Assembly: GCF_003002955.1 (NCBI RefSeq)
Contig: NZ_PVTJ01000004.1
Location: 248,001-312,000 of the forward strand
Reading direction: 5' to 3'
DNA from: Glycomyces artemisiae
Lineage (GTDB): Bacteria > Actinomycetota > Actinomycetes > Mycobacteriales > Micromonosporaceae
Length of the DNA: 64,000 nucleotides
This document shows, in pieces, positions 1-62,115 of this stretch (the stretch's first letter is position 1; every line of letters starts with the position of its first letter). The notes below the pieces were generated by a model that did not search any database, was not told where the DNA came from, and saw only the letters and a program-made list of their open reading frames with translations. A program made the position numbers and the translations under genes.

Positions 1-259
1 GGCCGCCGGGCTGCCCTGCGTCATGCCGCCGCGCTTCGAGCCGCTGTTCGGCGACGGCGGCGTCTACTGCGAACCCGAGGAGGTCGAGGCCGTCGTGCGC
101 GCGCTCATGGAGCCCGGCCGGTACCGCGAGCAGTCGGAGCGGTCGCTCGCGACGGTCCGCGAGCACTTCTCCCACGAGGCGCTGCTGCGCCGCGTCGCCG
201 CGCTCGGCGTGCGCGTCCCCGACCTGGCCGCCACTGCCTCGGAAGGCGGGACGCGATGA
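1..259 (+). CDS. Glycosyltransferase, C-terminal fragment (cut by window edge)
   Basis: The reading frame is open from base 2 to the stop at 259, so the start lies outside the window. The visible 85 residues match the C-terminal ends of the proteins at 256-1800 and 3979-5475: a 'GLPCVMPPRFEPLFG' stretch, then 'YCEPEEVEAVV' and a terminal helix containing HFSHEALLRRV. This is the sugar-nucleotide-binding end of a GT-B fold glycosyltransferase. Its stop overlaps the ATG of the next gene (ATGA), so the two are translationally coupled. Donor and acceptor are unknown; the surroundings suggest a cell-surface glycan. Confidence 0.75.
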   Translation, partial: AAGLPCVMPPRFEPLFGDGGVYCEPEEVEAVVRALMEPGRYREQSERSLATVREHFSHEALLRRVAALGVRVPDLAATASEGGTR

Positions 260-1800: not shown

Positions 1801-1855
1801 CCTGGTCAGCCGCAACTGCTCCGGCAGGAATGCGAACCTTCCACGAACGCCGTGC

Positions 1856-3982: not shown

Positions 3983-5475
3983 TCGGAGCACGCATGCGCA
4001 CCGCCAAGAGGCTCGCGCTCGCCGGGGCCGTGTTCGGGGCCGTGACGCTCGCGGTCGCCGCGCTCGCCCTCGCCGCACCGCCCGTCGTGTACCTGCCCGC
4101 GATGGCCGCGGTCCTCGCCGGGGAGGCCGCGCTCGTGGTCTACCTGCTGCGCAACCGGATGCGCGACTCCGGGGTCGCGAGCCCGCTGCAACTGCTGTCG
4201 CGGCGGCGCCTGCGGGCCGCGCAGCGCGAGACCCGCGCGCTCGCGAACGTGCGCAAGTGGCAGGAGCGCCTCGACGCGGGCTTCGTGTCCGCCGCGTCGC
4301 CGGCGCTCGCCTCGATCGCCGCCGACGGCGGCCACACGAGGACCGTCCGCAAGGCCGCGGCCGCCGCGCTCGCGACGCCCCGCGCGACCGGTGCGGGCGC
4401 CGAGGAGCGGTACGACGTCGTCATCGCCTCGAACTTCAACCTCCCCGGCGGCACCACCTCCTCGAACCTGAACGAGATCGCGCTGCTCAAAGCCGCGGGG
4501 ATGCGCGTGGGCCTGGTCCACAACCCGCTGTTCGAGATGCACCCCGGGCGGCCGCTGAACGGGAAGGTCCTCGACGCCGTGGACGGCGACCGGGTCCGGA
4601 TCGTCGGCGACCGCGCGAAGGTCAAGGCCGACCTGCTGCTCATGCGGTTCCCGCCGTTCGCGTCGCAGCTGCGCGACGACCTGCCCGAGATCGAGGCCGC
4701 ACAGCGGATGCTCGTGGTCAACCAGGCGCCCATGACCTATTACGAGGGCGGCGTGGGCCGCAAGCGCGTATGGGACGTGGACCGCGTGCACCGCAAGCTC
4801 ACCGGCTGGATCGGCGAGCACCGCTGGGTCACCGTCGGCCCGCTCGTCCACCAGGCGCTGCTCGACTTCCACGCCGACGAGCTCGACGGCGTGGACCTCT
4901 CGGCCGACTACTGGTACCCCTCGATCGACCTGAAGGCCACCGAGGTCCGGGGCGAGGAGCCCGTCGGGGACGTGGTGCGCATCGGACGCCACTCCCGCGA
5001 CCACCTGTCGAAGTGGCCGGAGCTCGCAGGGCAGCTGCGGGCCTGCTACCCGGCCGGTCCCGGCTTCGAGATCCGCGTCCTCGGCGGCGTCGACGTGCCG
5101 CGGCGGACCCTCGGCCGGCTGCCGTCCAACTGGGTGGGCCACCGGTTCGACGAGGTCGCCGTGGGCGAGTTCCTGCGCGGCCTCGACGTGTACGTGTACT
5201 ACACGTGCTCGTCGTGGCTGGAGGCGTTCGGGCGCGCGCCCGTCGAGGCGATGGCCGCGGGCGTCCCGGTGGTCCTGCCGCCGGTGTTCAAGCCCGCGTT
5301 CGGATCCGGGGCCCTCTACGCCGAGCCCGCCGACGTGGCCGCGCTCGTCACCGAGCTGACCGGGGACCATGCGAAGTGGCTGGAGCAGCGCGAGGCGGGC
5401 TTCGAGACCACCCGGCGGCTGTTCAGCCACGAGGCGCACCGGGCGCGCTTCCGCGCGCTCGGCCTCGACCTGTAG
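3979..5475 (+). CDS. Membrane-anchored GT-B glycosyltransferase
   Basis: 498 residues from the ATG that overlaps the upstream stop (ATGA); a second in-frame ATG at 3994 could also serve. Two N-terminal membrane helices (about residues 10-55) are followed by a GT-B fold: 'SNFNLPGGTTSSNLNEI' early and 'EAFGRAPVEAMAAGVPVV' late. The domain order and many short blocks match the protein at 256-1800, so they are paralogues within one cluster. It lacks a signal peptide cleavage site and is probably a cytoplasmic-facing membrane enzyme. It ends 21 bp before the convergent lipoprotein gene. The likely role is sugar transfer onto a lipid-linked or wall polymer precursor. Confidence 0.8.
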   Translation: MIGARMRTAKRLALAGAVFGAVTLAVAALALAAPPVVYLPAMAAVLAGEAALVVYLLRNRMRDSGVASPLQLLSRRRLRAAQRETRALANVRKWQERLDAGFVSAASPALASIAADGGHTRTVRKAAAAALATPRATGAGAEERYDVVIASNFNLPGGTTSSNLNEIALLKAAGMRVGLVHNPLFEMHPGRPLNGKVLDAVDGDRVRIVGDRAKVKADLLLMRFPPFASQLRDDLPEIEAAQRMLVVNQAPMTYYEGGVGRKRVWDVDRVHRKLTGWIGEHRWVTVGPLVHQALLDFHADELDGVDLSADYWYPSIDLKATEVRGEEPVGDVVRIGRHSRDHLSKWPELAGQLRACYPAGPGFEIRVLGGVDVPRRTLGRLPSNWVGHRFDEVAVGEFLRGLDVYVYYTCSSWLEAFGRAPVEAMAAGVPVVLPPVFKPAFGSGALYAEPADVAALVTELTGDHAKWLEQREAGFETTRRLFSHEAHRARFRALGLDL

Positions 5476-5496
5476 GAGCGGACCTCCGACGGCCCC

Positions 5497-6223: not shown

Positions 6224-8533
6224 TCACAGCGCCGGGAGCTGCTCCTCCAGCAGCTGGGTCAGCGACCGCGCGTACGGGGTGCTCATGTGGTGCGAATCGC
6301 GGTACACGAGCAGGTTCCCGGTGACCACCGGGCACTCCCCCGCGTAGCAGAACCAGCCGACGGTCTCGACGACCTGCGCCCCCGCCTCCTGCTCGGCGGC
6401 GAACGCGGCCTCGCGGTTCCCCGAGTCGTCCACGGCCTCGGTGCGCTGCATGACGCACTCGTCCACCGCGTCCTGGTGCAGCGCGACGCAGTCGGGCACC
6501 GGCCCGTACGGGCTGCGCGGGGTGTCGGTGAGGACCACGGTCTGCCCGGCCGAGGGGGTGATCCGCGCGAGCGTGTCGGTCCAGCCCTGCGCCCACCGCT
6601 CGGGGCTGTCGTCCTCCCAGTCGACCAGCGGCGGCGCGTCCTCGCCGCTGAGGACCACCATGGCGGGCTTGAGCTCGTCGATCTCGTCGAGGACGCGGTC
6701 GCGCCACTCGGCGCAGCCGGTGTACTCGCCGCCGACGTCGCTGTTGGAGACCGTCACCGTCGCCGGGGTGCACGCGCTCTTGGTGCGCGTCAGCAGCTTC
6801 CAGCCGTTCGCCTCCGCGATCGGCTCCAGCGCCGGGAACCACTGCGCCGCATGGGAGTCGCCCACGAGCATGACGGTCTTGTCGCCGCCGGTGTCGCCGA
6901 AGACGCAGTCGCCGGGGAGGTCCTCGGTCCACGCGTCCAGGTGGCAGCCGTTCCCGTAGATCTCCGGCTGGTCGGTCGCCACGGCCGTCAGCGACGGCTC
7001 CAGGTCGGCCGGGACCTGCGTGGTCGCGATGCCCTCCTGGAGGCGCACCTCGATCTGCGAGACGTCCTCGACCTCCTCGACGGCCTCCAGGTCCACCGCG
7101 TCGTCCTCCTGCGGCGGGACCTTCCCGAACCCGAGGGTGAGGACCAGGACCATGCCGATGCCCAGCAGCGAGCACGCGACGCCGGTGACCAGGCCCCACA
7201 TGTTGCTCGTCTTCAGCGGCCGGGCGCGGCGCAGCGGCTCCTCGATGTACAGGAACGACAGCTGCGCGACGGCCACCGTCGCGAGCAGCAGCACCACGTT
7301 CAGGCTCACGGTCGGCTCGGCGTCGACCGCGAGCGGGATGAGGATGAGGATCGGCCAGTGCCACAGGTACAGGCTGTAGGAGATCTTCCCGACGTACTGG
7401 AACGGGCCGGTGCCCAGCAGCGAGCTGGACGGGTTCTTGGCGCCCGTGCCCGCGGCGATGAGCGCCGCCGCACCGAGGACCGGCAGGAGCGCGGTGTAGC
7501 CCGGGAACGGCGTGGACGAGTCGTAGAGGACGCCCGAGGCGATGATCGCGGCGAGCCCGGCGATGCCGAGGACCCACGCGAGGGCCGCCGGGATGCGCTT
7601 GAGCGTCGGCAGCATGAGCGCCAGGACTGCGCCCGCGGCGAGCTCCCAGATCCGCGTGTGCGCCGCGTAGTACGCGGTCGGCTGCGACACCTGCGTCGTC
7701 AGCACCGACAGGACCAGGCTGAGCGCGAAGAGCCCCGCGCACGCGGCGAGCGCCGCGGTCACGAACTTGCGGGGCGCGCGCTTGGCGAGCACGAGCAGGC
7801 CGATGAGCAGCAGCGGCCAGATGACGTAGAACTGCTCCTCGACCGCCAGGGACCAGTACTGCTGGAACGGCGAGGGCATCTGGTCGGCGTTGAGGTACTC
7901 GGTCTCGGTCGCCACGAACCGGTAGTTCACGGCGTAGACGATCACGGTGAACGCGTCCTGCATGACCGCTTCGAGGCGGGTCACGGGGAACCACAGCCAC
8001 GCGCCGAGGGCCGTGGCGATGGTGACGGCGCTGGCGGCGGGGAGGATGCGGCGGGCGCGGCGGGCGTAGAACCCGGCGATCGAGATCTTCCCGGTGTCGA
8101 AGACCTCCTTGACGAGCAGAGAGGTGATGAGGAAGCCGGAGACGACGAAGAACACGTCGACGCCGACGTACCCGCCCTGCGCGAACGCGAACCCGGCGTG
8201 CGACAGGAGCACCAGGACCACGGCGACGGCGCGCAGGCCCTGGATGTCGGGGCGGAAGCCGACGCCCTCCCAGCGCTGCGGCGGGCGGACCGGGGCGGGC
8301 GCGGGCCGCGGGTGCGCGCCGGTGGTGCGCATGCCCGGCGGGGCCGGGGCCGCGGGCGGCGGCGCGGGGGCGCGGAACGGGGGCCGGACCGGGTAGGGGC
8401 TGGGGGCGGTGCGCTGGGTGGCCGCGGCGGGGTGGGCGGCGGAGCCGGGCGTGGTCGTGGGCAGGTGGAGGGTCTCCTCGTTGACGCCGCCCCCGGTAGC
8501 GGCTCGGGACTGCGGGGGCTGGGGCGAGGTCAT
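6224..8533 (-). CDS. OafA-type membrane acyltransferase with SGNH domain
   Basis: 769 residues from the ATG at 8533, which has GGAG upstream; a longer frame to 8641 exists but lacks a ribosome site. After a ~95-residue Pro/Ala-rich cytoplasmic N-terminus comes an acyltransferase-3 domain with about ten helices, opened by 'RPDIQGLRAVAV' and containing the catalytic-type His in 'LLSHAGF', the 'GYVGVDVFFVVSGFLIT' block and 'FWSL/YWSLAVEEQFY'. The last ~270 residues form an extracytoplasmic SGNH hydrolase-like domain: 'VMLVGDSHAAQWFP' (block I Ser) and 'YRDSHHMSTPYA' (Asp/His of the catalytic triad). Such proteins move acyl groups across the membrane onto surface glycans or peptidoglycan. A close paralogue lies directly downstream. 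Confidence 0.9.
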   Translation of the reverse strand: MTSPQPPQSRAATGGGVNEETLHLPTTTPGSAAHPAAATQRTAPSPYPVRPPFRAPAPPPAAPAPPGMRTTGAHPRPAPAPVRPPQRWEGVGFRPDIQGLRAVAVVLVLLSHAGFAFAQGGYVGVDVFFVVSGFLITSLLVKEVFDTGKISIAGFYARRARRILPAASAVTIATALGAWLWFPVTRLEAVMQDAFTVIVYAVNYRFVATETEYLNADQMPSPFQQYWSLAVEEQFYVIWPLLLIGLLVLAKRAPRKFVTAALAACAGLFALSLVLSVLTTQVSQPTAYYAAHTRIWELAAGAVLALMLPTLKRIPAALAWVLGIAGLAAIIASGVLYDSSTPFPGYTALLPVLGAAALIAAGTGAKNPSSSLLGTGPFQYVGKISYSLYLWHWPILILIPLAVDAEPTVSLNVVLLLATVAVAQLSFLYIEEPLRRARPLKTSNMWGLVTGVACSLLGIGMVLVLTLGFGKVPPQEDDAVDLEAVEEVEDVSQIEVRLQEGIATTQVPADLEPSLTAVATDQPEIYGNGCHLDAWTEDLPGDCVFGDTGGDKTVMLVGDSHAAQWFPALEPIAEANGWKLLTRTKSACTPATVTVSNSDVGGEYTGCAEWRDRVLDEIDELKPAMVVLSGEDAPPLVDWEDDSPERWAQGWTDTLARITPSAGQTVVLTDTPRSPYGPVPDCVALHQDAVDECVMQRTEAVDDSGNREAAFAAEQEAGAQVVETVGWFCYAGECPVVTGNLLVYRDSHHMSTPYARSLTQLLEEQLPAL

Positions 8534-8738
8534 GGTGCGAGTGTCTCCGTCTGCGGATCGCCGGGGCTGGTTCGCGCCCCATCCTAGGCGCATCCGGCCC
8601 TTCCGCGGACTCGGTGGTGACCAATCCGACCAACCGGACACGCAACTGGTTGCGGGCCTTGCTCACATCGTACCGAGGGCGGTCCCGCCGCGCGGTGCCG
8701 CACGGGCCCTGACGGCCCGAAATGTCGCTCCCGCAACC

Positions 8739-10856
8739 TCATTGGAGCGACGGCAGGGCCGCGCCCAGGACGTTCGCGAGGGACGCGGCGTACGGGGTGG
8801 AGACGTGGTGGCCGTCGCGGTAGACGGAGATGCCGTCGACCACGAGCGGGCACTGCCCGTCGACGCAGAACCACGGCTCGGTGTCGACGGTCGTCGCGCC
8901 CGCCGCCTCCTGCGCCGCGAACCCGGCTTCGCGGCGGTCCGCGTACGTGATCGCGTAGGGGCTCTCGGCCACGCAGGTCTGCACGTCGCCCTGGTGCAGC
9001 GCCAGGCAGTCGGGGGCGGCTTCGACGGTGGCCCAGGGGGTGTCGGCGAGGACGGCGACCTGCCGCGCGGCCTCGGACCCGGCGAGCGCCTCGGTCCACC
9101 CGGCGCTCCACGCCTCGGCGGCCGCCTCGCCGTCGAGGCCGGAGACGCCGGTCTTGTCGGAGGTGGCGATGACGACCAGTTCCGGCTCCAGTGCGTCGAT
9201 CTCCGCGAAGACCTCCTGCTTCCAGTCCCAGCACTCGGTGTACTCGCCCTCGTGGACGGTGCTGTCGACGCGCACGGACACGGGCGTGCAGGCGCTCTTG
9301 GTGCGGGAGACCAGCTCCCAGCCGTTGCGGTCGGCGAGCGCGGCGAGGGCCGGGAACCACTGCGCCGCATGGGAGTCGCCGAAGAGCATCACTTCGGTGT
9401 CGGAGCCGGTGTCGCCGTAGGAGCAGCCGTCGGGAAGGCGGACGTCCTCGAAGTCGAGGTGGCAGCCGTCGTCGTAGGTGGCGGGCCGGTCCCCCGCGGC
9501 GCCCGCGAGGGGCGGCACGAGGTCGGCGGGAAGGGCGGTGACGGCGAGGCCGTCGCGGAGGCGCTGCTCCTGGGCGGAGACGTCTTCGACCGCTTCGATC
9601 GCGTCGAGGTCGACCGGTTCGGCGCCGTCGGGGGTCTTGGGGAAGACGTGGACGAGCGCGAGGACCGCGGCCGCGCATGCGGCGGAGGCGGTGAGGCCCA
9701 TGAGGAGGCCCGCCCAGTTTCGTTTGAGGGGGCGCCAGTTGCGGACGGGCTCTTCGATGCAGGCGTAGGAGAGCTGGGCGACGGCGACGGTGGCGGCGAG
9801 GAGGATCAGGTTGAGGCGCAGCGTCGGGTCGGTGCCGAGGGCGAGGGGCGCGAGGATGAGGATCGGCCAGTGCCACAGGTAGAGGCTGTAGGAGATGCGG
9901 CCGAGGAACTGGAACGGGGCCGTGGACAGGAGGGCCGAGGCGGGGTTGCGGCCGGAGGCCGAGCCGGCGGCGATGACGGCGGCCGTGCCGAGGACTGGGG
10001 CGAGGGCGGCGTGGCCGGGGAAGGGGGTGGCCTCGGTGAACATGAAGCCCGACAGCAGGATCGCGGCGAGGCCGCCGATGCCGAGGACCCAGGCGAGGGC
10101 CCGCGGGGTCCGCTTGAGGGACGGGAGCGTCAGGGCCAGGAGGGCTCCGGCGGCGAGTTCCCAGGCGCGGGTGTGGGCGGCGTAGTACGCGGTCGGTTGG
10201 GAGGCGGCCGTGACCGTCACTGAGAGCGCGAGGGTCGCGGCGAAGATGACCGCGGAGGCGATGATCGCGGCCGTGACGAGGCGGCGCGGGCGCCTTCCCG
10301 TGCACAGCAGCAGGACCAGGAGGAGCAGCGGCCACACGACGTAGAACTGCTCTTCGACCGCGAGGGACCAGAACTGCTGGAACGGCGAGGGCATCTGGTC
10401 GGCGTTGAGGTACTCGGTCTGCTCGGCGACGAAGCGGTAGTTCACGACGTAGACGACGACGGCGAGCGCGTCCTGGAGCACCGCGTCGAGGCGCGTCACG
10501 GGGAAGAACAGCCACGCGCCCAAGGCGGTCGCGGCCGTGACGGCGGTGGCGGCGGGGAGGATGCGGCGGGCGCGGCGGGCGTAGAACCCGGCGATGGAGA
10601 TGCGGCCGGTGGTGAAGACCTCCTTGACGAGCAGGGAGGTGATGAGGAAGCCGGAGAGCACGAAGAACACGTCGACGCCGACGTATCCGCCTGCGGCCCA
10701 CGGGAGTCCGGCGTGCGAGAGCAGGACGAGGCCGACCGCGACCGCGCGCAGGCCCTGGATGTCGGGGCGGAACCCGAGGCCGGGCCAGCGGTCGGGTGCA
10801 GCGGCGATGCGGGGCAGCAGGAGCGTGTCGGTGCGGCTCGCCGCGGTGGTCGTCAT
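8739..10856 (-). CDS. OafA-type membrane acyltransferase with SGNH domain (tandem paralogue)
   Basis: 705 residues from ATG 10856; GTG 10871 would add five residues and neither start has a strong ribosome site. It has the same architecture as the protein at 6224-8533, but with a much shorter N-terminal tail (about 30 residues). 'RPDIQGLRAVAVGLVLLSHAG', 'GVDVFFVLSGFLIT' and 'WSLAVEEQFYVVWP' mark the acyltransferase-3 membrane domain. 'VMLFGDSHAAQWFPAL' and 'YRDGHHVSTPYA' mark the periplasmic SGNH domain, where the second block is DGHH rather than the DSHH of the paralogue. The two genes are 205 bp apart in the same direction and are best explained by tandem duplication. Substrate unknown; O-acylation of a wall polymer is likely. 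Confidence 0.9.
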   Translation of the reverse strand: MTTTAASRTDTLLLPRIAAAPDRWPGLGFRPDIQGLRAVAVGLVLLSHAGLPWAAGGYVGVDVFFVLSGFLITSLLVKEVFTTGRISIAGFYARRARRILPAATAVTAATALGAWLFFPVTRLDAVLQDALAVVVYVVNYRFVAEQTEYLNADQMPSPFQQFWSLAVEEQFYVVWPLLLLVLLLCTGRRPRRLVTAAIIASAVIFAATLALSVTVTAASQPTAYYAAHTRAWELAAGALLALTLPSLKRTPRALAWVLGIGGLAAILLSGFMFTEATPFPGHAALAPVLGTAAVIAAGSASGRNPASALLSTAPFQFLGRISYSLYLWHWPILILAPLALGTDPTLRLNLILLAATVAVAQLSYACIEEPVRNWRPLKRNWAGLLMGLTASAACAAAVLALVHVFPKTPDGAEPVDLDAIEAVEDVSAQEQRLRDGLAVTALPADLVPPLAGAAGDRPATYDDGCHLDFEDVRLPDGCSYGDTGSDTEVMLFGDSHAAQWFPALAALADRNGWELVSRTKSACTPVSVRVDSTVHEGEYTECWDWKQEVFAEIDALEPELVVIATSDKTGVSGLDGEAAAEAWSAGWTEALAGSEAARQVAVLADTPWATVEAAPDCLALHQGDVQTCVAESPYAITYADRREAGFAAQEAAGATTVDTEPWFCVDGQCPLVVDGISVYRDGHHVSTPYAASLANVLGAALPSLQ

Positions 10857-10946
10857 CGGGCGGGTCGCCACGTCGAAGGCATCGGGACAGTGTCCCGGAG
10901 CCAGGTGGACCCGGAGTGAACATCGCGAGGCGGGCGGGGGAACGAA

Positions 10947-10974
10947 ACGGCCCCGACCGGGAGGTCGGGGCCGT
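10947..10974 (-). terminator. Rho-independent-type terminator after the export permease
   Basis: A perfect 12-bp inverted repeat (acggccccgacc / ggtcggggccgt) with a 4-base loop lies just downstream of the permease stop at 10983. On the minus strand it is followed by a short T-rich run (TTTCGTT). Confidence 0.75.
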
Positions 10975-10982
10975 CGTCTCGT

Positions 10983-12641
10983 TTAGAGCGCCTTGAGGAC
11001 GCGCGGTTCGAGCTTGTAGAAGATCCAGCGGCCGAAGAACAGCAGGAAGACGGAGAAGCCGACGGCCACCCCCACCTGGTACATGTTCGGCGCCAGTTCG
11101 GGGTTGAACGCCCCGCGGTGCATCGAGAAGATGCCGACGAGCGGGTTCGAGGAGAACACCTGGAAGAGCCAGGGGTTGTTCTTCATCGCGTCGGCCTCGG
11201 CGACCTTGGAGACCGGGTAGATGATCGCGGAGCCGTAGAACAGGAGCCGCATGACCAGGGGCATGAACCGGGAGACGTCCTTGAAGAGGACGTTCGCGGC
11301 CGAGAGCACGAACACCATGCCCGTGGTCAGCATGGCCTGCACCAGGATCGCCGGGACGAGCCAGAGGAGGTTGAGGCCGAACACGCCGCCGTCGAGGAGC
11401 GCGACGATGATGAGGATCGGGAAGCCGACCAGGTATTCGGCGAAGCGCGCGAAGACCTTCGAGACGGGGAAGACCTCTCTGGGGACCTTCATGACCGTGA
11501 TGAGGCTGGCCTGGCCGCCGAGGGCAGTCTGGCCCTGGCCGACCGCGGTGCTGAACCACTGGTAGGCGAAGATGCCCGAGACGATGAACAGCAGGTACCC
11601 GGAGCTGCCCGGGAGGTCGCGGCCGCCGCCGAAGACGATGTCGAACACGAACCAGTAGATGAGCGTCAGGCCCAGCGGCTCGATGAGCGACCACACGTAG
11701 CCCATGACGGTGGACTGGTACTTGACGGCGAGGTCGCGGCGGACCAGGACCGACATCGCGTACCGGTGGCGCAGGAGCGCGGTGAAGCCGGTCGTCAGCG
11801 GGAACTTCCGCTTGAGCGGCTTGGCCTCGGCCTCGCGGGTGTTGTCGATCGGCCCCTCGTCGCTGCGCGCGGAGTCGAGGAACGCGGGGAGCTCGGCGGT
11901 GTCGTCGATGTTCCGGCGGATCGGCGACTGCCCGGCCATGGGCATGTCGCGGCCCGGCTCGGCGCGGGTCGCGTAGGGCGCCTGCGGGACCTGGCCCGGG
12001 CTGCCCGCGGCCACGTGCGGCGGCGGGGGCGCGACCGCGGGGGGCGGCGGAGGCGTCTGCGGCTGGAAGTGGTTGGGCTGGCCGTACGGCTGCGGCGGCT
12101 GCTGCCCGTAACCGGGCGGCGGGGGCGGCGGCTGCTGTCCCGGGTGGGGCGGGGGCGGCGTCTGGTGCTGGGGCTGCCCGGGGTGCTGCGGCTGCGGGGA
12201 CTGCTGCGGCTGGCCCGGGTGGTAGGGCGCCTGCGGGGCCCCGTAAGGCTGCTGCGGCGAGCCGTACGCGGCGGGCGGCGGGGCCTGCGGGTGGCCGGGC
12301 GCCGGGTGCGCGCCGGGGTGCTGGGGCGCAGCGGGGTTGAAGCCGGGCTGGGGCGCATAGCCTTGCGGCGCAGGCGCTCCCGGAGCGGCGGGGGCGTGCC
12401 CCTGCTGCCCGGGCTGGCCCGGGTGGGGCGGCGGGGTGATGCCGGGAGCGGCCGACGGAGGCGGGCTCGCGAACGCTGCCGATCCGGAGCTCATGGCCCC
12501 CTGCGGGTATCCCGCGGGAGTGGCCGACGGCCCGGCGCCGAGGCCGCCCTGGGGGGCTGCGGCGTCGTTGGAGTCCGGGCTCCCGTCGCGGTTCCCGGCT
12601 GGGCCGGAGACGCCGTCGGGGTGCGGGCTAATCGAGCTCAT
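10983..12641 (-). CDS. ABC-2 polysaccharide/teichoic-acid export permease with long Pro/Gln-rich N-terminus
   Basis: 552 residues. The last ~260 residues are an ABC-2 exporter permease of the TagG/Wzm kind: a conserved amphipathic lead ('LVRRDLAVKYQSTVMGYVWSLIEPL'-like region, residues about 300-325) and six membrane helices ending in 'KLEPRVLKAL'. The first ~225 residues are low-complexity Pro/Gln/Gly/Ala repeats, unusual for this family, which normally starts near the first conserved region. The ATG has GGAG seven bases upstream and overlaps the end of the dehydrogenase gene by 14 bp, so this is the last gene of an overlapping three-gene operon. No ABC ATPase partner (TagH/Wzt) is found in the window. 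Inferred role: export of a lipid-linked surface polymer. Confidence 0.88.
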   Translation of the reverse strand: MSSISPHPDGVSGPAGNRDGSPDSNDAAAPQGGLGAGPSATPAGYPQGAMSSGSAAFASPPPSAAPGITPPPHPGQPGQQGHAPAAPGAPAPQGYAPQPGFNPAAPQHPGAHPAPGHPQAPPPAAYGSPQQPYGAPQAPYHPGQPQQSPQPQHPGQPQHQTPPPPHPGQQPPPPPPGYGQQPPQPYGQPNHFQPQTPPPPPAVAPPPPHVAAGSPGQVPQAPYATRAEPGRDMPMAGQSPIRRNIDDTAELPAFLDSARSDEGPIDNTREAEAKPLKRKFPLTTGFTALLRHRYAMSVLVRRDLAVKYQSTVMGYVWSLIEPLGLTLIYWFVFDIVFGGGRDLPGSSGYLLFIVSGIFAYQWFSTAVGQGQTALGGQASLITVMKVPREVFPVSKVFARFAEYLVGFPILIIVALLDGGVFGLNLLWLVPAILVQAMLTTGMVFVLSAANVLFKDVSRFMPLVMRLLFYGSAIIYPVSKVAEADAMKNNPWLFQVFSSNPLVGIFSMHRGAFNPELAPNMYQVGVAVGFSVFLLFFGRWIFYKLEPRVLKAL

Positions 12642-13683
12642 GCATCATCTCCGTCAGGTGTCGCTCCAGCGCCACCGAGTCCAGTTCACGATGTTCGAGA
12701 ATCGTATAACGGCCTGGCCGGGTCCTCGGCGCGTAGGCCACCGCTGTGGCGAGCTGGGCCGAAGTCAATCCGAGTTCACTCGCGGTGCGCGGCAGCCCGT
12801 GCCGCTTCATGGCCGCGGCGAGCTCGGCGAACAGGGCCTCGTCGCCCCGCAGCCAGGTGCACACGAGCGCCCCGAGGGCCCCTTCGGCCCCGTGCGTCGC
12901 GAGGCCGGGGTGCAGCTCCTCGATCGCGTGCGCGATCTCGTGGCACCCGCCTGAGCAGGGCCGCGACGATCCGGCCATCGAAGAGGCGAGGCCGCCTTGG
13001 ATGAGCGCGTCGGCGAGGGTCGCCAGGAACGCGTCGTCGGCGATCGTCCCGGGGTGGCGCAGCACCGCTTCGGCGCCGGTGCGCGCGATGGCGGCGGCGA
13101 GGCCGTCGACGGGCTCGCCGTTCACCTCGTGCGAGAGCTGCCAGTCGGCGACCGCGGACAGGTTCGTGAGGGCGTCGCCGATCCCGGACTGGAGCTGGTG
13201 CGCCGGGGCCCTGCGGATGAAGTCGAGGTCGGCGAGGACCGCGAGCGGCGGGTGGACCCCGTAGGAGACGGAGTGGCCGTCGCGTTCGAGCGAGGCCGTG
13301 GGGGACGCGAGGCCGTCGTGGGCGAGGCTCGTGGCGACCGAGACCATCGGCAGGCCCAGGTCGGAGGCGGCCCACTTGGCGGTGTCGAGGAGCTTCCCGC
13401 CGCCGATGCCGACGAGGGCGTCCACGCGGTGGTCGTCGCGCAGGCGCTTGGTCAGCTCCTTGGCGCTGTCGAGGCTGCCGGGGACGACGGTGTGGACCGT
13501 GGCGTCGGGCAGGTGGTCGAGCTGGTCGGCGATGGTCTCGCCCAGGCCCGGCCCGAGCGCGACGGCGACGCGCCCGCCCGAGGAGATCCGGGAGTCCGCG
13601 AGGAGCTCCGGGAGGCGCCCGACGGCGCCCGCGGAGACCTCGACGGTGATCGGGGCCAGCACCGTGCGGGCGAACGTCGGCAC
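12628..13683 (-). CDS. Glycerol-1-phosphate dehydrogenase family (AraM/EgsA-like)
   Basis: 351 residues from a GTG that shares one base with the upstream TAG stop. It is an iron-containing alcohol-dehydrogenase-fold enzyme of the glycerol-1-phosphate dehydrogenase subgroup. 'ALVGIGGGKLLDTAKW' (residues 89-104) is the glycine-rich NAD(P)-binding loop. D170 ('SGIGD'), H248 ('GCHE') and H264 ('ATHG') sit where this family binds its metal. The family reduces dihydroxyacetone phosphate to sn-glycerol-1-phosphate, as in archaeal lipid synthesis and Bacillus AraM. It lies between a nucleotidyltransferase and an export permease, which suggests that the product is activated to a CDP-alcohol for a surface polymer rather than used for membrane lipid. 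The exact substrate is inferred. Confidence 0.85.
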   Translation of the reverse strand: MPTFARTVLAPITVEVSAGAVGRLPELLADSRISSGGRVAVALGPGLGETIADQLDHLPDATVHTVVPGSLDSAKELTKRLRDDHRVDALVGIGGGKLLDTAKWAASDLGLPMVSVATSLAHDGLASPTASLERDGHSVSYGVHPPLAVLADLDFIRRAPAHQLQSGIGDALTNLSAVADWQLSHEVNGEPVDGLAAAIARTGAEAVLRHPGTIADDAFLATLADALIQGGLASSMAGSSRPCSGGCHEIAHAIEELHPGLATHGAEGALGALVCTWLRGDEALFAELAAAMKRHGLPRTASELGLTSAQLATAVAYAPRTRPGRYTILEHRELDSVALERHLTEMMHELD

Positions 13684-14444
13684 TACAGCGCCTCCGCGCT
13701 CTGCTGCCTGGATCGCTCCGCAAGCTCCGCGATCTCGCGGGCGAGGGCCCAGTCGGCGTGGTCGTCGACCTCGGTCCAGGCGACGGGCCCGGTCGAGACC
13801 GTGCCGATGCGCCCGGCTTCGGCCAGCAGTTGGAAGGCGTCCTCGTAGTAGAGGGTCGAGTCGCGGGTGAAGGTCGCTTCGAGGGCCTTGGTCAGCTCCT
13901 CGGCGATCCCGGCGGGGATGAGGCTCACGCCGATGTACTCGCCCGCGGCGGCCTCGATGGGCTGCTGCTTGTGGATGAGCTCCACGCCGTGCTCGCCGAT
14001 GCGCACTTTCATCGCCTCGTCGGTGAGCCGCTTGTGGTCGTCGAGGGCCAGGAGCAGGCGCGGGTCGTCCTCGGCGGCGGCGAGGAGGTTCCGCTCGATG
14101 CTCGCGGGGTGGACGGTGTCGCCGTTGACGAGGATCGCGCCCTGGGCGTACCGCTCGCGGGCGGTCCACAGCGAGTAGGCGTTGTTCCAGTGCGGCCTGT
14201 CGTTGTCGACGATCGCGACCGTGACGCCGTAGCGCGATTCGAGCTCGGGGGCGTGCTCGCGGATCTTCTCGGCGGCGTGGCCGACGGTGACCGCGATGTC
14301 CGTCACGCCGACCTCGGCGAGGCCGCGGACGATGGTGTCGAGGATGGTCTCGGTCGCGGTGACCGGCAGGAGCGTCTTCGGGAGGCGGTCGGTGTCGGGG
14401 CGCAGGCGCTGCCCCTGTCCGGCGGCGAGGATGACGCCTCTCAT
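13683..14444 (-). CDS. Sugar/alcohol-phosphate nucleotidyltransferase (LicC-like)
   Basis: 253 residues from ATG 14444, which follows GAAAGGCAG; a GTG at 14468 is possible but has no ribosome site. 'MRGVILAAGQGQRLRP' is the nucleotide-binding signature of NTP-transferases, followed by 'LPKTLLPV' with the phosphate-contacting Lys, and 'AILVNGDTVH' with the metal-binding Asp. Single-domain enzymes of this size with this lead resemble phosphocholine/glycerol-phosphate cytidylyltransferases more than the longer hexose-1-phosphate enzymes. It is the first gene of the operon; the next gene probably makes the alcohol phosphate. Inference: it makes CDP-glycerol or a similar CDP-activated alcohol. GDP- or dTDP-sugar synthesis cannot be excluded. 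Confidence 0.8.
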   Translation of the reverse strand: MRGVILAAGQGQRLRPDTDRLPKTLLPVTATETILDTIVRGLAEVGVTDIAVTVGHAAEKIREHAPELESRYGVTVAIVDNDRPHWNNAYSLWTARERYAQGAILVNGDTVHPASIERNLLAAAEDDPRLLLALDDHKRLTDEAMKVRIGEHGVELIHKQQPIEAAAGEYIGVSLIPAGIAEELTKALEATFTRDSTLYYEDAFQLLAEAGRIGTVSTGPVAWTEVDDHADWALAREIAELAERSRQQSAEAL

Positions 14445-56170: not shown

Positions 56171-57331
56171 CTACTCCTCGCCGCCGCCGACGAGGTCCGC
56201 GTTCTGCTCGACCCAGGCGCCCACGGTGTCCTCGCGGATCGCGTCCCAGAGGCTCGTCGCCTCCGGGTTGTCGTTCGACGGGTTCTCCAGGTCGTACGAG
56301 TAGACGACCACGGACTCGCCGCCGATGGTGTCCGTGCCGAGGTTCGGCGTGGTCATGAAGACCAGGTCGTCGCTGCGCAGGTCCATGAGGCTGATCGCGG
56401 TCGAGACGACGTTGAACTCGGTGTCGACCTTGACGGCGTCCGACGTGGAGTCGATGAAGCTGGTGAGCGTCGAGCGGCTGGTGAGCACGCCCGCGCTCAG
56501 CGCCGAGTCCATGATGGCCTTGATGAGGTCCTGCTGGTGCTGCATGCGCGCGAAGTCGCCGCGGTTCCACTGCTTGCGCTGGCGCACGTAGTCGAGGGCC
56601 TGCTCCCCGGTGAGCTCGGTGGGGCCCGCGGGGAAGAACATGTGGTCGCCGTGGATCGACTCGACGCCGGGCTCGTCGGTGATGTAGCCGTCGGCGTCGG
56701 CGGCCTCGATGTCGATGGTGACGCCGCCGAGGGCGTCGACGACCTGGACGAGGCCTGCGAAGTCGATCTCGACGACGTGGTCGATGCGGACGCCGGTGAA
56801 CTCCTCGATGGTGAGGACGGTGAGCGGCACGCCGCCCCAGGCGTACGCGGCGTTGAACTTCGCGTCGGACCCGGTGTACTCGGGGTAGTTGCTGGCGTCG
56901 GCGTACTCGGGGATGTGCACGTAGAGGTCGCGCGGGATGGAGACGCCGTACGCCTCGGTCCCGTCCTCGGCGACGTGCATGATGATGTTGGTGTCCGAGC
57001 GGGCGTCGGCCTCGTCGTTGCCCTCGCGGTGGTCGGAGCCGACGATGAGGATGTTCAGGGCCGCGTTCAGCTTCTCGGGGCGGTCCTCGTCGGGGATCGC
57101 TTCGAGGTCGAACGGCCGGTCGAGGTCGGCGTCGGTGGTCTTGGCGGTCGACCAGATCGCGAACCCGCCGCCGGTGGCCGCGATGGAGGCCACGAGGCCG
57201 ATCCCGGAGCCGATGAGGCCCCGCCGGGTCGAGCCGCCGCCGGCCGCCGCGGCGGCGACGCGCGCGCCGCCCCCGCCGCCCGCGGGGGGCACGGAGGCGC
57301 TGCCGCGGTAGTTGGAACCGGAATACGTCAT
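56171..57331 (-). CDS. LytR-CpsA-Psr family wall-polymer ligase
   Basis: 386 residues. A short Gly/Ala-rich cytoplasmic lead, one membrane helix at about 38-62, then the extracytoplasmic LCP domain. Landmarks are 'NILIVGSDHREGNDEADAR' followed by 'SDTNIIMHV', 'YGVSIPRDLYVHIP' with the Arg/Asp pair, 'KFNAAYAWGG' and 'LTGEQALDYVRQRKQ' near 'RMQHQQDLIKAI'. LCP enzymes transfer lipid-linked teichoic-acid-like or capsular polymers to peptidoglycan. It is the last gene of a set that contains an SDR and a polyprenyl phosphosugar transferase, so it probably attaches their product to the wall. Confidence 0.93.
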   Translation of the reverse strand: MTYSGSNYRGSASVPPAGGGGGARVAAAAAGGGSTRRGLIGSGIGLVASIAATGGGFAIWSTAKTTDADLDRPFDLEAIPDEDRPEKLNAALNILIVGSDHREGNDEADARSDTNIIMHVAEDGTEAYGVSIPRDLYVHIPEYADASNYPEYTGSDAKFNAAYAWGGVPLTVLTIEEFTGVRIDHVVEIDFAGLVQVVDALGGVTIDIEAADADGYITDEPGVESIHGDHMFFPAGPTELTGEQALDYVRQRKQWNRGDFARMQHQQDLIKAIMDSALSAGVLTSRSTLTSFIDSTSDAVKVDTEFNVVSTAISLMDLRSDDLVFMTTPNLGTDTIGGESVVVYSYDLENPSNDNPEATSLWDAIREDTVGAWVEQNADLVGGGEE

Positions 57332-57399: not shown

Positions 57400-58368
57400 T
57401 CAGGGGGCGGTGAGCTTCCCCGCAGCGCGCCTCGCGACGAAGTCGTCGATGGTGGTCTTGAGACCGGCCTCATAGTGGACCTGCGGCTCGTAGCCGAGCA
57501 GCTCGCGGGCCCTGGTGAGGTCGGGGCGGCGGCGCTCGGGGTCGTCGGAGGGCCGGTCGGTGTACTCGATGGCCGAGGACGAGCCGGTGAGCCGCAGGAT
57601 GACTTCGGCCATCTCGCGGACGGTGAGCTCGTACTCCGTGCCGAGGTTCACGGGCCCGTACTCGCCGGACTCCAGGAGCAGCACGAGGCCGGCGACGAGG
57701 TCGTCGACATAGCACAGCGAGCGGGTCTGGGAGCCGTCGCCGTGGATGGTCAGGGGCTCCCCGGCGAGGGCCTGCGAGATGAAGCTGGGGACGACGCGGC
57801 CGTCGTCGGGGCGCATGCGCGGGCCGTACGTGTTGAAGATCCGCACGATCGCGGCGTCGAGGCCCTTGTGGCGGTGGTAGGCCGCGACGGCGGCCTCCGA
57901 GAATCGCTTGGCCTCGTCGTAGCAGGAGCGCACCCCGATGGGGTTCACGTTGCCCCAGTAGGACTCCGGCTGCGGGTGGACGAGCGGGTCGCCGTACACC
58001 TCGGAGGTGGAGGCCATGAGGAAGCGGGCGCCGTCGGCGAGCGCGCGGTCGAGCGCGTGCAGCGTGCCGACGGAGTCGACGCGGAGGATCTCCACGGGGA
58101 GGGTCGCGAAGTCGACCGGGCTGGCCGGGCACGCGAAGTGGAGGACGGCGTCGAAGGGCTCGTCGCCGACGGGGAGGCCCTCGGTGACGTCGGCCTCGAC
58201 GACGGTGAGGCGCTCGTGGGGCTGGAGGTTGGCCTTCGAGCCGGTCACGAAGTTGTCGACAGCGGTCACGTCGCAGCCCTTCGCCAGGAGCGCGTCGACC
58301 AGGTGGCTGCCCACCAGGCCCGCGCCGCCGGTGACGAGGATGCGGCTGCCGGTTCCGTAAGTAGTCAT
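57400..58368 (-). CDS. NAD-dependent nucleotide-sugar SDR (UDP-glucuronate decarboxylase-like)
   Basis: 322 residues from ATG 58368. 'ILVTGGAGLVGSHLVDALL' is the NAD-binding GxxGxxG loop, 'MASTSEVYGDPLVHPQPESY' the Ser/Thr region, and 'SCYDEAKRFSE' holds the catalytic Tyr-x3-Lys. 'NTYGPRMRPDDGRVVPSF' and 'GDGSQTRSLCYVDDLV' match UDP-xylose synthase more than dTDP-glucose 4,6-dehydratase. It would convert UDP-glucuronate to UDP-xylose, though an epimerase role is possible. It lies 83 bp after the polyprenyl phosphosugar transferase gene in the same direction. Confidence 0.85.
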   Translation of the reverse strand: MTTYGTGSRILVTGGAGLVGSHLVDALLAKGCDVTAVDNFVTGSKANLQPHERLTVVEADVTEGLPVGDEPFDAVLHFACPASPVDFATLPVEILRVDSVGTLHALDRALADGARFLMASTSEVYGDPLVHPQPESYWGNVNPIGVRSCYDEAKRFSEAAVAAYHRHKGLDAAIVRIFNTYGPRMRPDDGRVVPSFISQALAGEPLTIHGDGSQTRSLCYVDDLVAGLVLLLESGEYGPVNLGTEYELTVREMAEVILRLTGSSSAIEYTDRPSDDPERRRPDLTRARELLGYEPQVHYEAGLKTTIDDFVARRAAGKLTAP

Positions 58369-58450
58369 CAAGATCCCAGATTATCAGGGTTGGCCTGGCG
58401 TTCACCTGGGCGCAGGCTGTGCATTCGCTCAACGCACGCCCGTGTGCCCG

Positions 58451-60022
58451 TCAGTACGCGCCCTTTCGTCGCAATACTACGGCGACGGTGCGGAACAGGA
58501 TCTGGAGGTCGGTCGTGAGGGACCAGTTGTCGACGTAGTAGAGGTCGAGGCGGACCGCGTCGTCCCAGGACAGGTCGGAGCGGCCCGAGACCTGCCAGAG
58601 GCCGGTGATGCCGGGGCGGACGAGCAGGCGGCGGCGCACGTCGCCGAGGAAGTCGCCGTTCTCGGCGGGGAGCGGCCGGGGGCCCACGAGGCTCATCTCG
58701 CCGCGGACGACGTTGATGAGCTGCGGGAACTCGTCGATCGAGGTGCGGCGCAGCCATTTGCCGACCTTGGTGATGCGCGGGTCGTCCTTCATCTTGAACA
58801 GCAGGCCGTCGGTCTCGTTGTGCATCATGAGCGCGGCCTGGCGCTCCTCGGCGTCGATGTACATGGTGCGGAACTTCCAGCACGAGAACGTCTCGCCGTC
58901 GCGGCCGACGCGGTTCTGGCGGAAGAACACCGGGCCGGGGCTGTCGGTCTTGATGGCGATGGCCACGGCCAGGAACAGGGGCGAGAGGAGGATGAGCCCG
59001 AACACCGAGGAGGAGATGTCGAGGATGTTCTTGATGAGCCAGCCGATCCCGGAGATCTTCGGCTCCTCGACGTGCAGGAGCGGCAGGCCCTCGACGGGGC
59101 GGATGTGGACGCGGGGCCCGGCGATGTCGGTGAGGGCGGGGGCGACGACGAGGTCGCGGCCGGTGCCTTCGAGCTGCCAGGCGAGGCGGCGCAGGTCGGC
59201 GGCGTCGGCGGAGGCCGAGCCGCACACGGCGAGCGTGTCGGCTTCGAGGCGCTCGGCGCAGGTGACGACGTCGGTCCCGGCGAAGACCGGGACCGGGGTG
59301 TCGAGGTTGCGGACCGAGGAGGCGCCCTCGGTGACGTATATGCCCACGGGGACCAGGCCCGCGGCGGGCGCGCGGCGGACCGTCCGGTACACCTCCAGCG
59401 CCTCGGGGTAGGCGCCGATGAGCAGGACCCGCTGGACGCCCTTGCCCGCGAGGCGCAGCTTGTGCAGGCCGTACCGGGCGCCGTAGCGGAAGCCGATGAC
59501 GAGCGCGGCGGCGGCGAGGAGGATGACGGCGACCGCGACGCGGGACACGTCGGCCTTGAAGGTGAGGGCCGCGAACGAGACGAGCGCCAGCATGAACATG
59601 GAGGCGCGGATGACGCGCTTGAACTCCTCGTTGCCCATGCCGAAGTAGCGGCGGTCGTAGGAGCCGGTGCCCCACAGGGCGAGCAGCCAGGCGAGGGGCA
59701 GGATCAGCCAGACCGTGAGGTAGAAGAAGTGGAGCTGGTCGTCGGTGTCGAACCCGGCGCTCGGGGAGTGGGTGAGGTTGACGGCGATGACGGTGGCGAG
59801 GAGGGCGGCGAGCAGGTCGGCGCCGACGAGGGCGCCCTGGTAGTAGCGGTGCCAGTTCGAGGCGCGGACGAGGCGCCGCCAGGTGCGGCGGGTGGCGCCG
59901 TTGGTGACGAGCTGCGGGTCGCCGCCTACGCGCGTACCGGCCACCTGGGTCCCCGTCCGTCCGTACGGAACACTGCCGCTTCCCTGGATATTGTTTGCTG
60001 GACGTTCCAGGCTCGTAGCCAC
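58451..60022 (-). CDS. Polyprenyl-phosphate sugar-1-phosphate transferase (WcaJ/PglC-type)
   Basis: 523 residues from a GTG with AGGGA upstream. Four to five N-terminal helices and a central Rossmann-like domain ('VQRVLLIGAYPEALEVY') are followed by the C-terminal bacterial sugar transferase domain. It begins with the reentrant helix 'KNILDISSSVFGLILLSPLF', then 'PVFFRQNRVGRDGETFSCWKF' region residues including the Glu-Asp catalytic area, 'RRTSIDEFPQLINVVRGEMS', 'LVGPRPLP' and 'RPGITGLWQVSGRS'. It starts polymer synthesis by loading a sugar-1-phosphate onto undecaprenyl phosphate. It heads a set ending in an LCP ligase. Confidence 0.94.
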   Translation of the reverse strand: MATSLERPANNIQGSGSVPYGRTGTQVAGTRVGGDPQLVTNGATRRTWRRLVRASNWHRYYQGALVGADLLAALLATVIAVNLTHSPSAGFDTDDQLHFFYLTVWLILPLAWLLALWGTGSYDRRYFGMGNEEFKRVIRASMFMLALVSFAALTFKADVSRVAVAVILLAAAALVIGFRYGARYGLHKLRLAGKGVQRVLLIGAYPEALEVYRTVRRAPAAGLVPVGIYVTEGASSVRNLDTPVPVFAGTDVVTCAERLEADTLAVCGSASADAADLRRLAWQLEGTGRDLVVAPALTDIAGPRVHIRPVEGLPLLHVEEPKISGIGWLIKNILDISSSVFGLILLSPLFLAVAIAIKTDSPGPVFFRQNRVGRDGETFSCWKFRTMYIDAEERQAALMMHNETDGLLFKMKDDPRITKVGKWLRRTSIDEFPQLINVVRGEMSLVGPRPLPAENGDFLGDVRRRLLVRPGITGLWQVSGRSDLSWDDAVRLDLYYVDNWSLTTDLQILFRTVAVVLRRKGAY

Positions 60023-60208
60023 TGCACATCCCTGCGGTCGTCAGCTTACGGTGGAGGTGAGTGTCCGCGGGCGGAGATCGACGCTGCGTCTCCTGATCAC
60101 CGGGCGGCCCGCCGACACGGTACCCGACAACCTACACCTATTCGGCTCCTGCGGTATCTTCGGCCGAGCTGAAAGCCGTTCCCGCCACCCCGTCCGTGAA
60201 GGATGCCA

Positions 60209-61369
60209 GTGAAGATCGTCATCGCGCACAACCGGTACTCCTCGGCCCAGCCCTCCGGCGAGAACGTCATCGTGGACTACGAGATCGGCGCGCTGCGCGA
60301 CGCGGGAATAGAGGTGGTCCCGTTCCTGCGCTCCTCCGACGAGATCGGTTCCCTTCCGGCGCATAGGAAAGCACTCCTGGCGGCTTCGCCGATCCACGCC
60401 GCCGGGACGCAGCGCCAGCTCGCCGCGCTCCTCGAACGCGAGCGGCCCGACCTCCTCCACCTGCACAACCCGTACCCGCTGCTGTCGCCGTCCGTGGTCA
60501 GGACCGCTCACGGCCACGGGGTCAAAGTGGTGCAGACCATTCACAACTACCGGCACGACTGCATGAACGGGCTCTACTTCAGGGACGGCCACGACTGCCG
60601 CGACTGCCACGGGAAGCGCTGGAACGCGCCCGGCGTGCAGCACGCCTGCTACCGGGGCTCGCGCCCGCAGAGCGCCGTGATGGCCGTCGCCCTCGGCGTC
60701 CACCAGGGCACCTGGAGGACCGTGGACCGGTTCATCGCCCTCACCGACGCCATGGCCGGGTACCTGGAGGGCATCGGCATCGCGCCCGAGCGCATCCGCG
60801 TGAAGCCGAACGCGGTCGCCGACCCCGGGGTCGCGCCGCTCGGCGAGGGCTTCCTGTTCGGCGCCCGCCTCGTCCCCGAGAAGGGCGTGGAACTGCTGCT
60901 CGACGCGTGGAAGATCGCGAAGCCGGCGGTGCCGCTGCGGATCGCCGGGGACGGGCCGCTGCGCGGGATCGTCGAGGACGCGGCCGCCGCGAACCCTGAG
61001 ATCCACTACCTCGGCCAGCTCGACCCCGTCGCGCGCGACGCCGCCGTCGCCTCCTCGGCCGCGGTGATCGTGCCGTCGATCTGGCAGGACATCCTGCCGA
61101 CCTCCGGGATCGAGGCCCTGGCCGCGGGGCGCGCCGTGGTCGTCACGAGCATGGGCGGGGCGCCGTTCATCGCCGGGGAGGGCACGCCCGCGCCCGCGGG
61201 GGTCGTGGCCGCGCCGGAGCCCGCGGCGCTCGCCGCGGCGATCAACGAGGTCGCGAAGGACCCGGCGTACGCGGCGAACGCGCGCGCCCGCTACGAGGCG
61301 GTCTTCGCGCCGGAGGTGACGCTGCGGCGGCTCGTCGAGATCTACGAGGAGCTGCTCGCCGAGGGGTAA
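60209..61369 (+). CDS. GT4 glycosyltransferase
   Basis: 386 residues from GTG 60209, spaced well from GAAGGA; ATG 60203 abuts that site. GT-B fold: 'VKIVIAHNRYSSAQPSGENV' is the usual lead, 'HLHNPYPLLSPSVV' the acceptor-side motif, 'FLFGARLVPEKGVELLLDAW' the donor loop and 'PTSGIEALAAGRAVV' the E-x7-E site. The segment between about 125 and 155 has four Cys ('CMNGLYFRDGHDCRDCHGKR', then C), a zinc-like knuckle seen in a subset of GT4 enzymes. It is divergent from the polyprenyl transferase gene and probably adds sugars to the same lipid-linked polymer. Confidence 0.92.
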   Translation: MKIVIAHNRYSSAQPSGENVIVDYEIGALRDAGIEVVPFLRSSDEIGSLPAHRKALLAASPIHAAGTQRQLAALLERERPDLLHLHNPYPLLSPSVVRTAHGHGVKVVQTIHNYRHDCMNGLYFRDGHDCRDCHGKRWNAPGVQHACYRGSRPQSAVMAVALGVHQGTWRTVDRFIALTDAMAGYLEGIGIAPERIRVKPNAVADPGVAPLGEGFLFGARLVPEKGVELLLDAWKIAKPAVPLRIAGDGPLRGIVEDAAAANPEIHYLGQLDPVARDAAVASSAAVIVPSIWQDILPTSGIEALAAGRAVVVTSMGGAPFIAGEGTPAPAGVVAAPEPAALAAAINEVAKDPAYAANARARYEAVFAPEVTLRRLVEIYEELLAEG

Positions 61370-61410: not shown

Positions 61411-62115
61411 TCAGCGGAGGGTGGCCCGTGCGCTCGTGGCGATGCTCGCCAGGAGGAACAGGCCGTTGACGGCCCCGAAGAACAGCATCACGGCGGCCAT
61501 CGACTCCGGCCACGCGAGCGCGACGGCGATGACGGCGACGACGAACCCGTAGTCGCGCACGAGCTTCACGAGCCGCACGACGATGTTCGTGCTCGTCACC
61601 ATCGACACCGACGAGTCCTCTTTGGCCATCACGGCGGTGACGAGGTTCGTCATCCACAGGGCCGCGAACGCCGCCCCGCACCACGCGGGAACCCAAGGGG
61701 CGTAAGCGTCCACGACGGCGACGACGACGGCGACGACCGAGGCCTGGATCGCGACGTCGCAGAGGATGTCGACGCGCGCGCCCGCGTCCGAGCCGGTGCC
61801 GGTGACGCGGGCGAGCTGGCCGTCGGCGCAGTCGAGCATGTACGCGGCGTGCCACAGGACCAGCGCGCCGAAGGCGACGGGCCACCACGGCGCGCCGTCC
61901 TCCGCCGCCGGGATGTAAGCGATCACGGCGGCGCTGACGGCGAGGCCGAGCACCAGGTTGAGGAGCGTCAGGTGGGTCGGCCGCAGGCCGGTCCGCCATG
62001 CGGCGTAAGCGAAGAGCGCGCCGCCGCGCTGGTCGAGGTGCAGGGTCACGAGGCCGCCGCCGCGGTTGGCGGCGAAGAACTCGGCGGGCCTGCGGGACGG
62101 GCGCTGATCGGTCAC
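61411..62115 (-). CDS. CDP-alcohol phosphatidyltransferase
   Basis: 234 residues from a GTG with AGGAT upstream. Five to six helices. The catalytic motif is 'DCADGQLARVTGTGSDAG' and continues to 'RVDILCD', giving the canonical D-x2-D-G-x2-A-R-x8-G-x3-D-x3-D with all four Asp residues. These enzymes move a phospho-alcohol from a CDP-alcohol onto a hydroxyl acceptor. The donor could be the CDP-alcohol made by the operon at 12628-14444; alternatively it acts in phospholipid synthesis. The short length and absence of extra domains fit both. It is convergent with the GT4 gene. Confidence 0.92.
   Translation of the reverse strand: MTDQRPSRRPAEFFAANRGGGLVTLHLDQRGGALFAYAAWRTGLRPTHLTLLNLVLGLAVSAAVIAYIPAAEDGAPWWPVAFGALVLWHAAYMLDCADGQLARVTGTGSDAGARVDILCDVAIQASVVAVVVAVVDAYAPWVPAWCGAAFAALWMTNLVTAVMAKEDSSVSMVTSTNIVVRLVKLVRDYGFVVAVIAVALAWPESMAAVMLFFGAVNGLFLLASIATSARATLR

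Follow-up and report, generated by a model that had tools for sequence, protein, structure and literature searches.

A dehydrogenase and nucleotidyltransferase operon of Glycomyces artemisiae predicted to supply CDP-1-glycerol for a glycoconjugate of the cell envelope

Introduction

In Bacillus subtilis the glycerol phosphate of wall teichoic acid is the sn-3 form and that of lipoteichoic acid the sn-1 form (PMC7086022), and cytidine diphosphate (CDP)-1-glycerol has been judged unlikely to occur in bacteria (Litschko 2021, PMC8262930). The enzyme GlpQ is stereospecific, cleaving the sn-3 form and not the sn-1 form (PMC7086022). Bacterial sn-glycerol-1-phosphate (G1P) made by AraM has been tied experimentally to a minor ether lipid of Bacillus. 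A study of the lipid divide listed actinobacterial homologues of G1P dehydrogenase (G1PDH), with no partner pathway (Yokobori 2016, PMC5059525). Here we analyse a 64,000-nucleotide stretch of the Glycomyces artemisiae genome (contig NZ_PVTJ01000004.1, positions 248,001 to 312,000; G000:C4:248001-312000 in our numbering), called the window below, from a host genome of 5.79 Mb that is 100% complete. It carries an operon of a nucleotidyltransferase (NTase), a G1PDH homologue and an export permease, and a CDP-alcohol phosphotransferase gene lies further along the same window. We consider it probable, though well short of certain, that this operon encodes the first steps of a pathway in which CDP-1-glycerol serves to build a glycoconjugate of the cell envelope.

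Several described systems resemble parts of this arrangement. IPCT-DIPPS (inositol-1-phosphate cytidylyltransferase, IPCT, with CDP-inositol phosphotransferase) and AF2299 likewise combine activation of a small alcohol phosphate by cytidine triphosphate (CTP) with a CDP-alcohol phosphotransferase; however, a dedicated G1PDH is included here and the neighbouring genes are for glycans and export, not for solutes. The AraM/EgsA-PcrB system of Bacillus also has a bacterial homologue of G1PDH, but PcrB is missing here and the partners of the dehydrogenase are instead an NTase and CDP-alcohol transferases. Wall teichoic acid synthesis by TagD/TagF, with the TarI/TarJ logic of reduction followed by CTP activation, shares with our system a CDP-polyol donor and TagGH-type export; in contrast, the predicted chirality here is the opposite, the activating enzyme is unrelated, there is no TagD, and a CDP-alcohol transferase stands in place of TagF or beside it. 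CpgD, of the ceramide diphosphoglycerate pathway of Caulobacter, has a similar LicC-like fold and uses CTP to activate a three-carbon phosphate, yet its substrate is phosphoglycerate and the product is a lipid. Closest in gene content is a Streptomyces synteny block, tagG-tagH-araM-CDP-OH_P-NTase, published in 2026 (PMC13118837), which is the same gene set by synteny; the passage on it gives no pathway or stereochemistry. No paper that joins G1PDH, NTase and CDP-alcohol transferase into a pathway was found in the open-access literature; the enzyme families are already known and the assembled pathway is, to our knowledge, undescribed.

Results

The dehydrogenase is a G1PDH homologue

The NTase, dehydrogenase and permease genes (Table 1) form a tightly packed unit in which the GTG start of the dehydrogenase sits inside the stop codon of the NTase (TAGTG) and the start of the permease overlaps the 3' end of the dehydrogenase by 14 nt; this agrees with the initial annotation, which had placed the three overlapping genes in one operon. 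A 513-aa open reading frame (ORF) in the mechanical ORF list is merely an upstream extension of the 351-aa dehydrogenase. The NTase-dehydrogenase pair is kept in 19 other Glycomyces loci (L003-L021; related loci are 93-94% identical) and across the phylum, and the arrangement is thus not due to chance.

When compared with NCBIfam models, the dehydrogenase scored 240.6 bits with NF002022 (NAD(P)-dependent G1P dehydrogenase), 68.3 with GldA and 57 with glycolaldehyde reductase. Since 240.6 bits falls short of the 413 bits curated as equivalog cut-off for NF002022, the protein counts as a homologue and not as a certified equivalog; all 29 relatives tested matched the same model. Its best Protein Data Bank (PDB) matches are 3ce9 and the G1PDHs 4rgq, 4rfl and 5fb3. 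D170, H248 and H264 (counted from the GTG) correspond in the alignment to chain positions D181, H259 and H280 of 4rgq, the M. jannaschii G1PDH. These would be native D148, H226 and H247, provided that the 4rgq chain includes a 33-residue tag, and they are presumably the metal ligands. The enzyme retains DGxASP, SSRPxSG and R[YW]T, motifs that it shares with 4rgq and 5fb3, and D123, G124, S127, P128, R241, P242, S244, G245, H248 and H264 are invariant in the 29 relatives. Judged by sequence, the enzyme is therefore a G1PDH homologue, much nearer to G1PDH than to glycerol dehydrogenase. The three residues named for it at the outset are indeed present and aligned, but the accompanying label of AraM/EgsA type proved loose, since it is the archaeal-type G1PDH model that the protein matches. 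A candidate second G1PDH in the host, the other Fe-ADH_2 match, is by sequence a shikimate kinase-dehydroquinate synthase fusion. Elsewhere, one Streptomyces-type genome (L066, G334:C1:847000-866900) has a second dehydrogenase copy with no adjoining NTase or CDP-OH_P gene.

The NTase belongs with CTP enzymes for alcohol phosphates

A profile built from 26 relatives of the NTase was searched against solved structures, and the five closest were LicC (E 2e-30), PntC (2e-23), 4jd0 (an inositol-1-phosphate CTP transferase), 2xme (the A. fulgidus IPCT) and 4mnd (IPCT-DIPPS), with no hexose-1-phosphate enzyme among them. The proposal of a LicC-like nucleotidyltransferase is thereby confirmed by the top match. 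A hexose-1-phosphate NTase is disfavoured, the nearest sequence relatives of known structure being enzymes that use CTP with alcohol phosphates or phosphonates. In structural comparison of an AlphaFold2 model (predicted local distance difference test, pLDDT, 97) the best match was PntC (Z 30.6) with sugar-1-phosphate enzymes next at 27-28, so that fold alone cannot settle the class. Residues N88, S91, N107, D109, E225 and D227 are invariant among relatives. In CpgD, Asn90 makes contact with both the ribose and the glycerate, and Thr93 with the cytosine; judging from motif spacing, N88 and S91 of the WNNAYS motif appear to resemble this pair.

A CDP-alcohol phosphotransferase is linked to the dehydrogenase across the family

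The transferase gene at 61411 encodes the full catalytic motif DCADGQLARVTGTGSDAGARVDILCD, which satisfies the pattern D..DG..AR.{8}G...D...D; together with the PF01066 match, this upholds the assignment of a CDP-alcohol phosphatidyltransferase with an intact motif. By profile, its solved relatives include IPCT-DIPPS and eukaryotic choline/ethanolamine phosphotransferases.

Linkage of this gene to the operon, which the initial annotation had suggested, is supported by its orthologues in other genomes. In Catellatospora (L022) the NTase gene is followed by that of the dehydrogenase and then by a CDP-alcohol phosphotransferase gene, whose product is 53% identical to the protein in the window. 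Among 121 genomes of the family the dehydrogenase occurs in 84, all of which (84/84) also have the transferase (Fisher p 1e-11, uncorrected for relatedness), and in 67 of the 84 the transferase is the next gene downstream of the dehydrogenase on the same strand, with gaps of 11-281 nt. All eight genomes of the window's genus fall among the 17 exceptions to this adjacency; there the two genes are 42-48 kb apart where they share a contig.

In genomes that lack the dehydrogenase, the transferase directly follows a different NTase (NTase') in 8 of the 12 loci read (L112-L117, L120, L122). NTase' is 25-29% identical to the NTase of the window (five aligned), and no close solved relative of it was found among structures. 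We read this as a donor-making step that may have been exchanged in front of one conserved transferase. The NTase'-transferase pair keeps the same chromosomal setting, for example at L114:9011-9739 and 8287-9024.

Relatives of the dehydrogenase were present in 42 of 396 genomes in a sample of the phylum. The NTase lies directly upstream of the dehydrogenase in 32 of 39 loci from this sample and a CDP-OH_P gene lies within 10 kb in 26, a frequency far above chance because CDP-OH_P genes number only five in the 5.8 Mb of the host. Streptomyces-type loci carry DUF5941-CDP-OH_P, NTase, dehydrogenase, a second CDP-OH_P, a family 2 glycosyltransferase (GT2), TagG and TagH, followed by squalene/phytoene synthases. 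At the fourth catalytic Asp the second CDP-OH_P (L091:10694-11473 and orthologues) has Ala or His, and the protein is possibly a non-catalytic or altered subunit.

PcrB and TagD are not found

Neither PcrB/GGGPS nor a TagD-type CTP:glycerol-3-phosphate cytidylyltransferase was found in the complete host genome. In the 41 other genomes with the dehydrogenase, PcrB searches gave only partial matches of 47-65 residues, one of them just over the cut-off, and no TagD match reached the cut-off. This removes both the one bacterial use of G1P known so far and the established source of CDP-sn-3-glycerol: the absence of PcrB rules against use of G1P for an ether lipid, and that of TagD rules out donor supply of the TagD type.

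Export genes and surface cluster

The permease scored 25.1 bits with its Pfam model, just below the gathering score of 26.9, and 34.7 bits with the KpsM model, also below cut-off. Despite these scores, its identification as an ABC-2 export permease holds, because the TagG adjoining the NTase-dehydrogenase pair in Streptomyces operons is of the same family. About 150 kb from the permease, at C4:109-112 kb (L110:7372-10205), the gene for a DUF5941-CDP-OH_P protein (C4:109 kb) overlaps that of a TagH-like ATPase (C4:111 kb). Because this TagH-like gene matches the Streptomyces set, the orphan TagG of the window has a plausible partner, and the two may work together. On sequence grounds the DUF5941 protein would be a second CDP-alcohol transferase, better linked to export than the one at 61411. 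Its model is of low confidence (pLDDT 63), so that the fold matches to IPCT-DIPPS and AF2299, which make the N-terminus NTase-like, are no more than supportive; no papers on DUF5941 were found in the open-access literature. A TagF-like locus of the host (L111:8636-11991, G000:C4:82-86 kb) holds an NTase' of the exchanged type (10426-11133) and a gene that by eye looks like IspD/TarI (11278-11991).

The remaining surface genes of the window are listed in Table 1; the LytR-CpsA-Psr (LCP) family attaches polymer to the wall. The nearest gene upstream of the operon, about 200 nt away on the minus strand, resembles isocitrate dehydrogenase by sequence. At 256-5477 of the window a GT2 gene is flanked by paired glycosyltransferase-like genes, and similar pairs lie upstream (L023) and at L110:10680-13142.

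Table 1 Features of the operon and of the second surface region, in window coordinates
Feature	Position	Strand	Basis and remarks
NTase (predicted CTP:sn-glycerol-1-phosphate cytidylyltransferase), LicC/IPCT/PntC type	13683..14444	-	253 aa, ATG at 14444; Pfam NTP_transf_3
sn-Glycerol-1-phosphate dehydrogenase homologue	12628..13683	-	351 aa, GTG start; NF002022, PDB matches, motifs
ABC-2/TagG-like export permease, N-terminal part proline-rich	10983..12641	-	ATG at 12641
AT3-SGNH O-acyltransferase, possible polymer modifier	8739..10871	-	Pfam; in only some Glycomyces loci
AT3-SGNH O-acyltransferase, possible polymer modifier	6224..8641	-	Pfam; adjoins operon in most Glycomyces loci
LytR-CpsA-Psr protein	56171..57331	-	Pfam; order kept in Glycomyces L126
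NAD-dependent sugar epimerase, same surface cluster	57400..58371	-	Pfam; order kept in Glycomyces L126
WbaP-like sugar-phosphate transferase (Bac_transf)	58451..60022	-	Pfam; Catellatospora L022 neighbour 55% identical
GT4 glycosyltransferase beside CDP-alcohol transferase	60203..61369	+	Pfam; Catellatospora L022 neighbour 55% identical
CDP-alcohol phosphotransferase (predicted phosphoglycerol transferase)	61411..62115	-	PF01066 above gathering score; full catalytic motif

Discussion

In the pathway that we propose, the dehydrogenase would reduce dihydroxyacetone phosphate to G1P, which the NTase would join with CTP to form CDP-sn-1-glycerol. The CDP-alcohol phosphotransferases (that at 61411 and probably the DUF5941 protein) would then place phosphoglycerol on a hydroxyl group of a lipid-linked glycan, the acceptor being built by the products of the WbaP and GT4 genes. 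The TagG-like permease and TagH-like ATPase would export the glycoconjugate, which AT3-SGNH proteins may modify and LCP proteins may anchor. The steps of reduction, activation and transfer are suggested by homology, by motifs and by a very strong linkage of the genes, those of export, modification and anchoring solely by Streptomyces synteny and gene neighbourhood. The proposal of the initial annotation, CDP-activated G1P made and used for a wall polymer, is supported in part. The substrates, stereochemistry, acceptor and polymer are likewise predictions from sequence. A broader proposal, which we offer tentatively and hold to be rather less secure than the pathway's start, is that CDP-alcohol phosphotransferases build a bacterial sn-1-glycerol-phosphate surface polymer in the cytoplasm from CDP-sn-1-glycerol made by a dedicated pair of G1PDH and cytidylyltransferase, and that this polymer, an enantiomeric counterpart of wall teichoic acid made by unrelated machinery, is widespread in Streptomyces and Micromonosporaceae.

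Several observations weigh against a CDP-1-glycerol pathway for a surface glycoconjugate. As noted, the dehydrogenase misses the curated cut-off of NF002022, and D170 is replaced by Glu in two of its relatives (L022, L068). In Glycomyces the transferase lies 48 kb from the operon, and in 19 genomes of the family it occurs without the dehydrogenase; the sampled genomes are related, so that the counts are of dependent events. The second CDP-OH_P of the Streptomyces-type operons is without the fourth motif Asp. In another actinobacterial group (L073-L087, e.g. L087:6430-13489) the NTase-dehydrogenase pair has DUF4012 on one side and a type I phosphodiesterase with WbaP on the other, and only some of these loci have a CDP-OH_P gene within 10 kb. 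Finally, the host has TagF-like genes elsewhere (C4:81-83 kb).

CDP-1-glycerol might instead serve a membrane lipid, with sn-1-phosphoglycerol moved onto a diradylglycerol or glycolipid in the fashion of the Kennedy pathway. With diacylglycerol as acceptor the product would be phosphatidylglycerol with the natural headgroup configuration, its free glycerol phosphate being sn-1 (PMC7086022), and the eukaryotic choline/ethanolamine phosphotransferases among the solved relatives of the transferase fit such a role. We nevertheless regard it as unlikely, given that for ordinary lipids the host has further CDP-OH_P genes, which score higher, and that linkage to GT2, TagG/TagH, WbaP and LCP genes favours glycans. 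Slightly less likely still is that the transferase takes G1P as its acceptor, or that the NTase activates for example inositol-1-phosphate, so that, as in the case of IPCT-DIPPS, the product would be a phosphodiester, glycerophosphoinositol for example: the profiles of both NTase and transferase match IPCT and IPCT-DIPPS entries, but no inositol gene was seen in the module and the genes around it are for glycans and export.

The identity of the alcohol bears on the dehydrogenase itself. Substrates vary across the Fe-ADH/DHQS superfamily, and with a G1PDH model score under the curated cut-off the enzyme could act on another ketose phosphate or alcohol, so that the activated alcohol would not be glycerol; we think this improbable, since the motifs of solved G1PDHs are kept and the scores with the models for glycolaldehyde reductase and GldA are far lower. 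Least credible of all is that G1P feeds an archaeal-type ether lipid as with AraM-PcrB of Bacillus, the experimentally known bacterial use of AraM-made G1P, when the host has no PcrB and the 41 other dehydrogenase genomes gave only short partial matches to it, one over the cut-off.

If the CDP-1-glycerol pathway is as we propose, the 'archaeal' G1P of many Actinobacteria would be a precursor of surface glycan, and bacterial G1PDH genes would be read differently in arguments on the lipid divide. The pathway also predicts an envelope glycerol phosphate of handedness opposite to that of wall teichoic acid.

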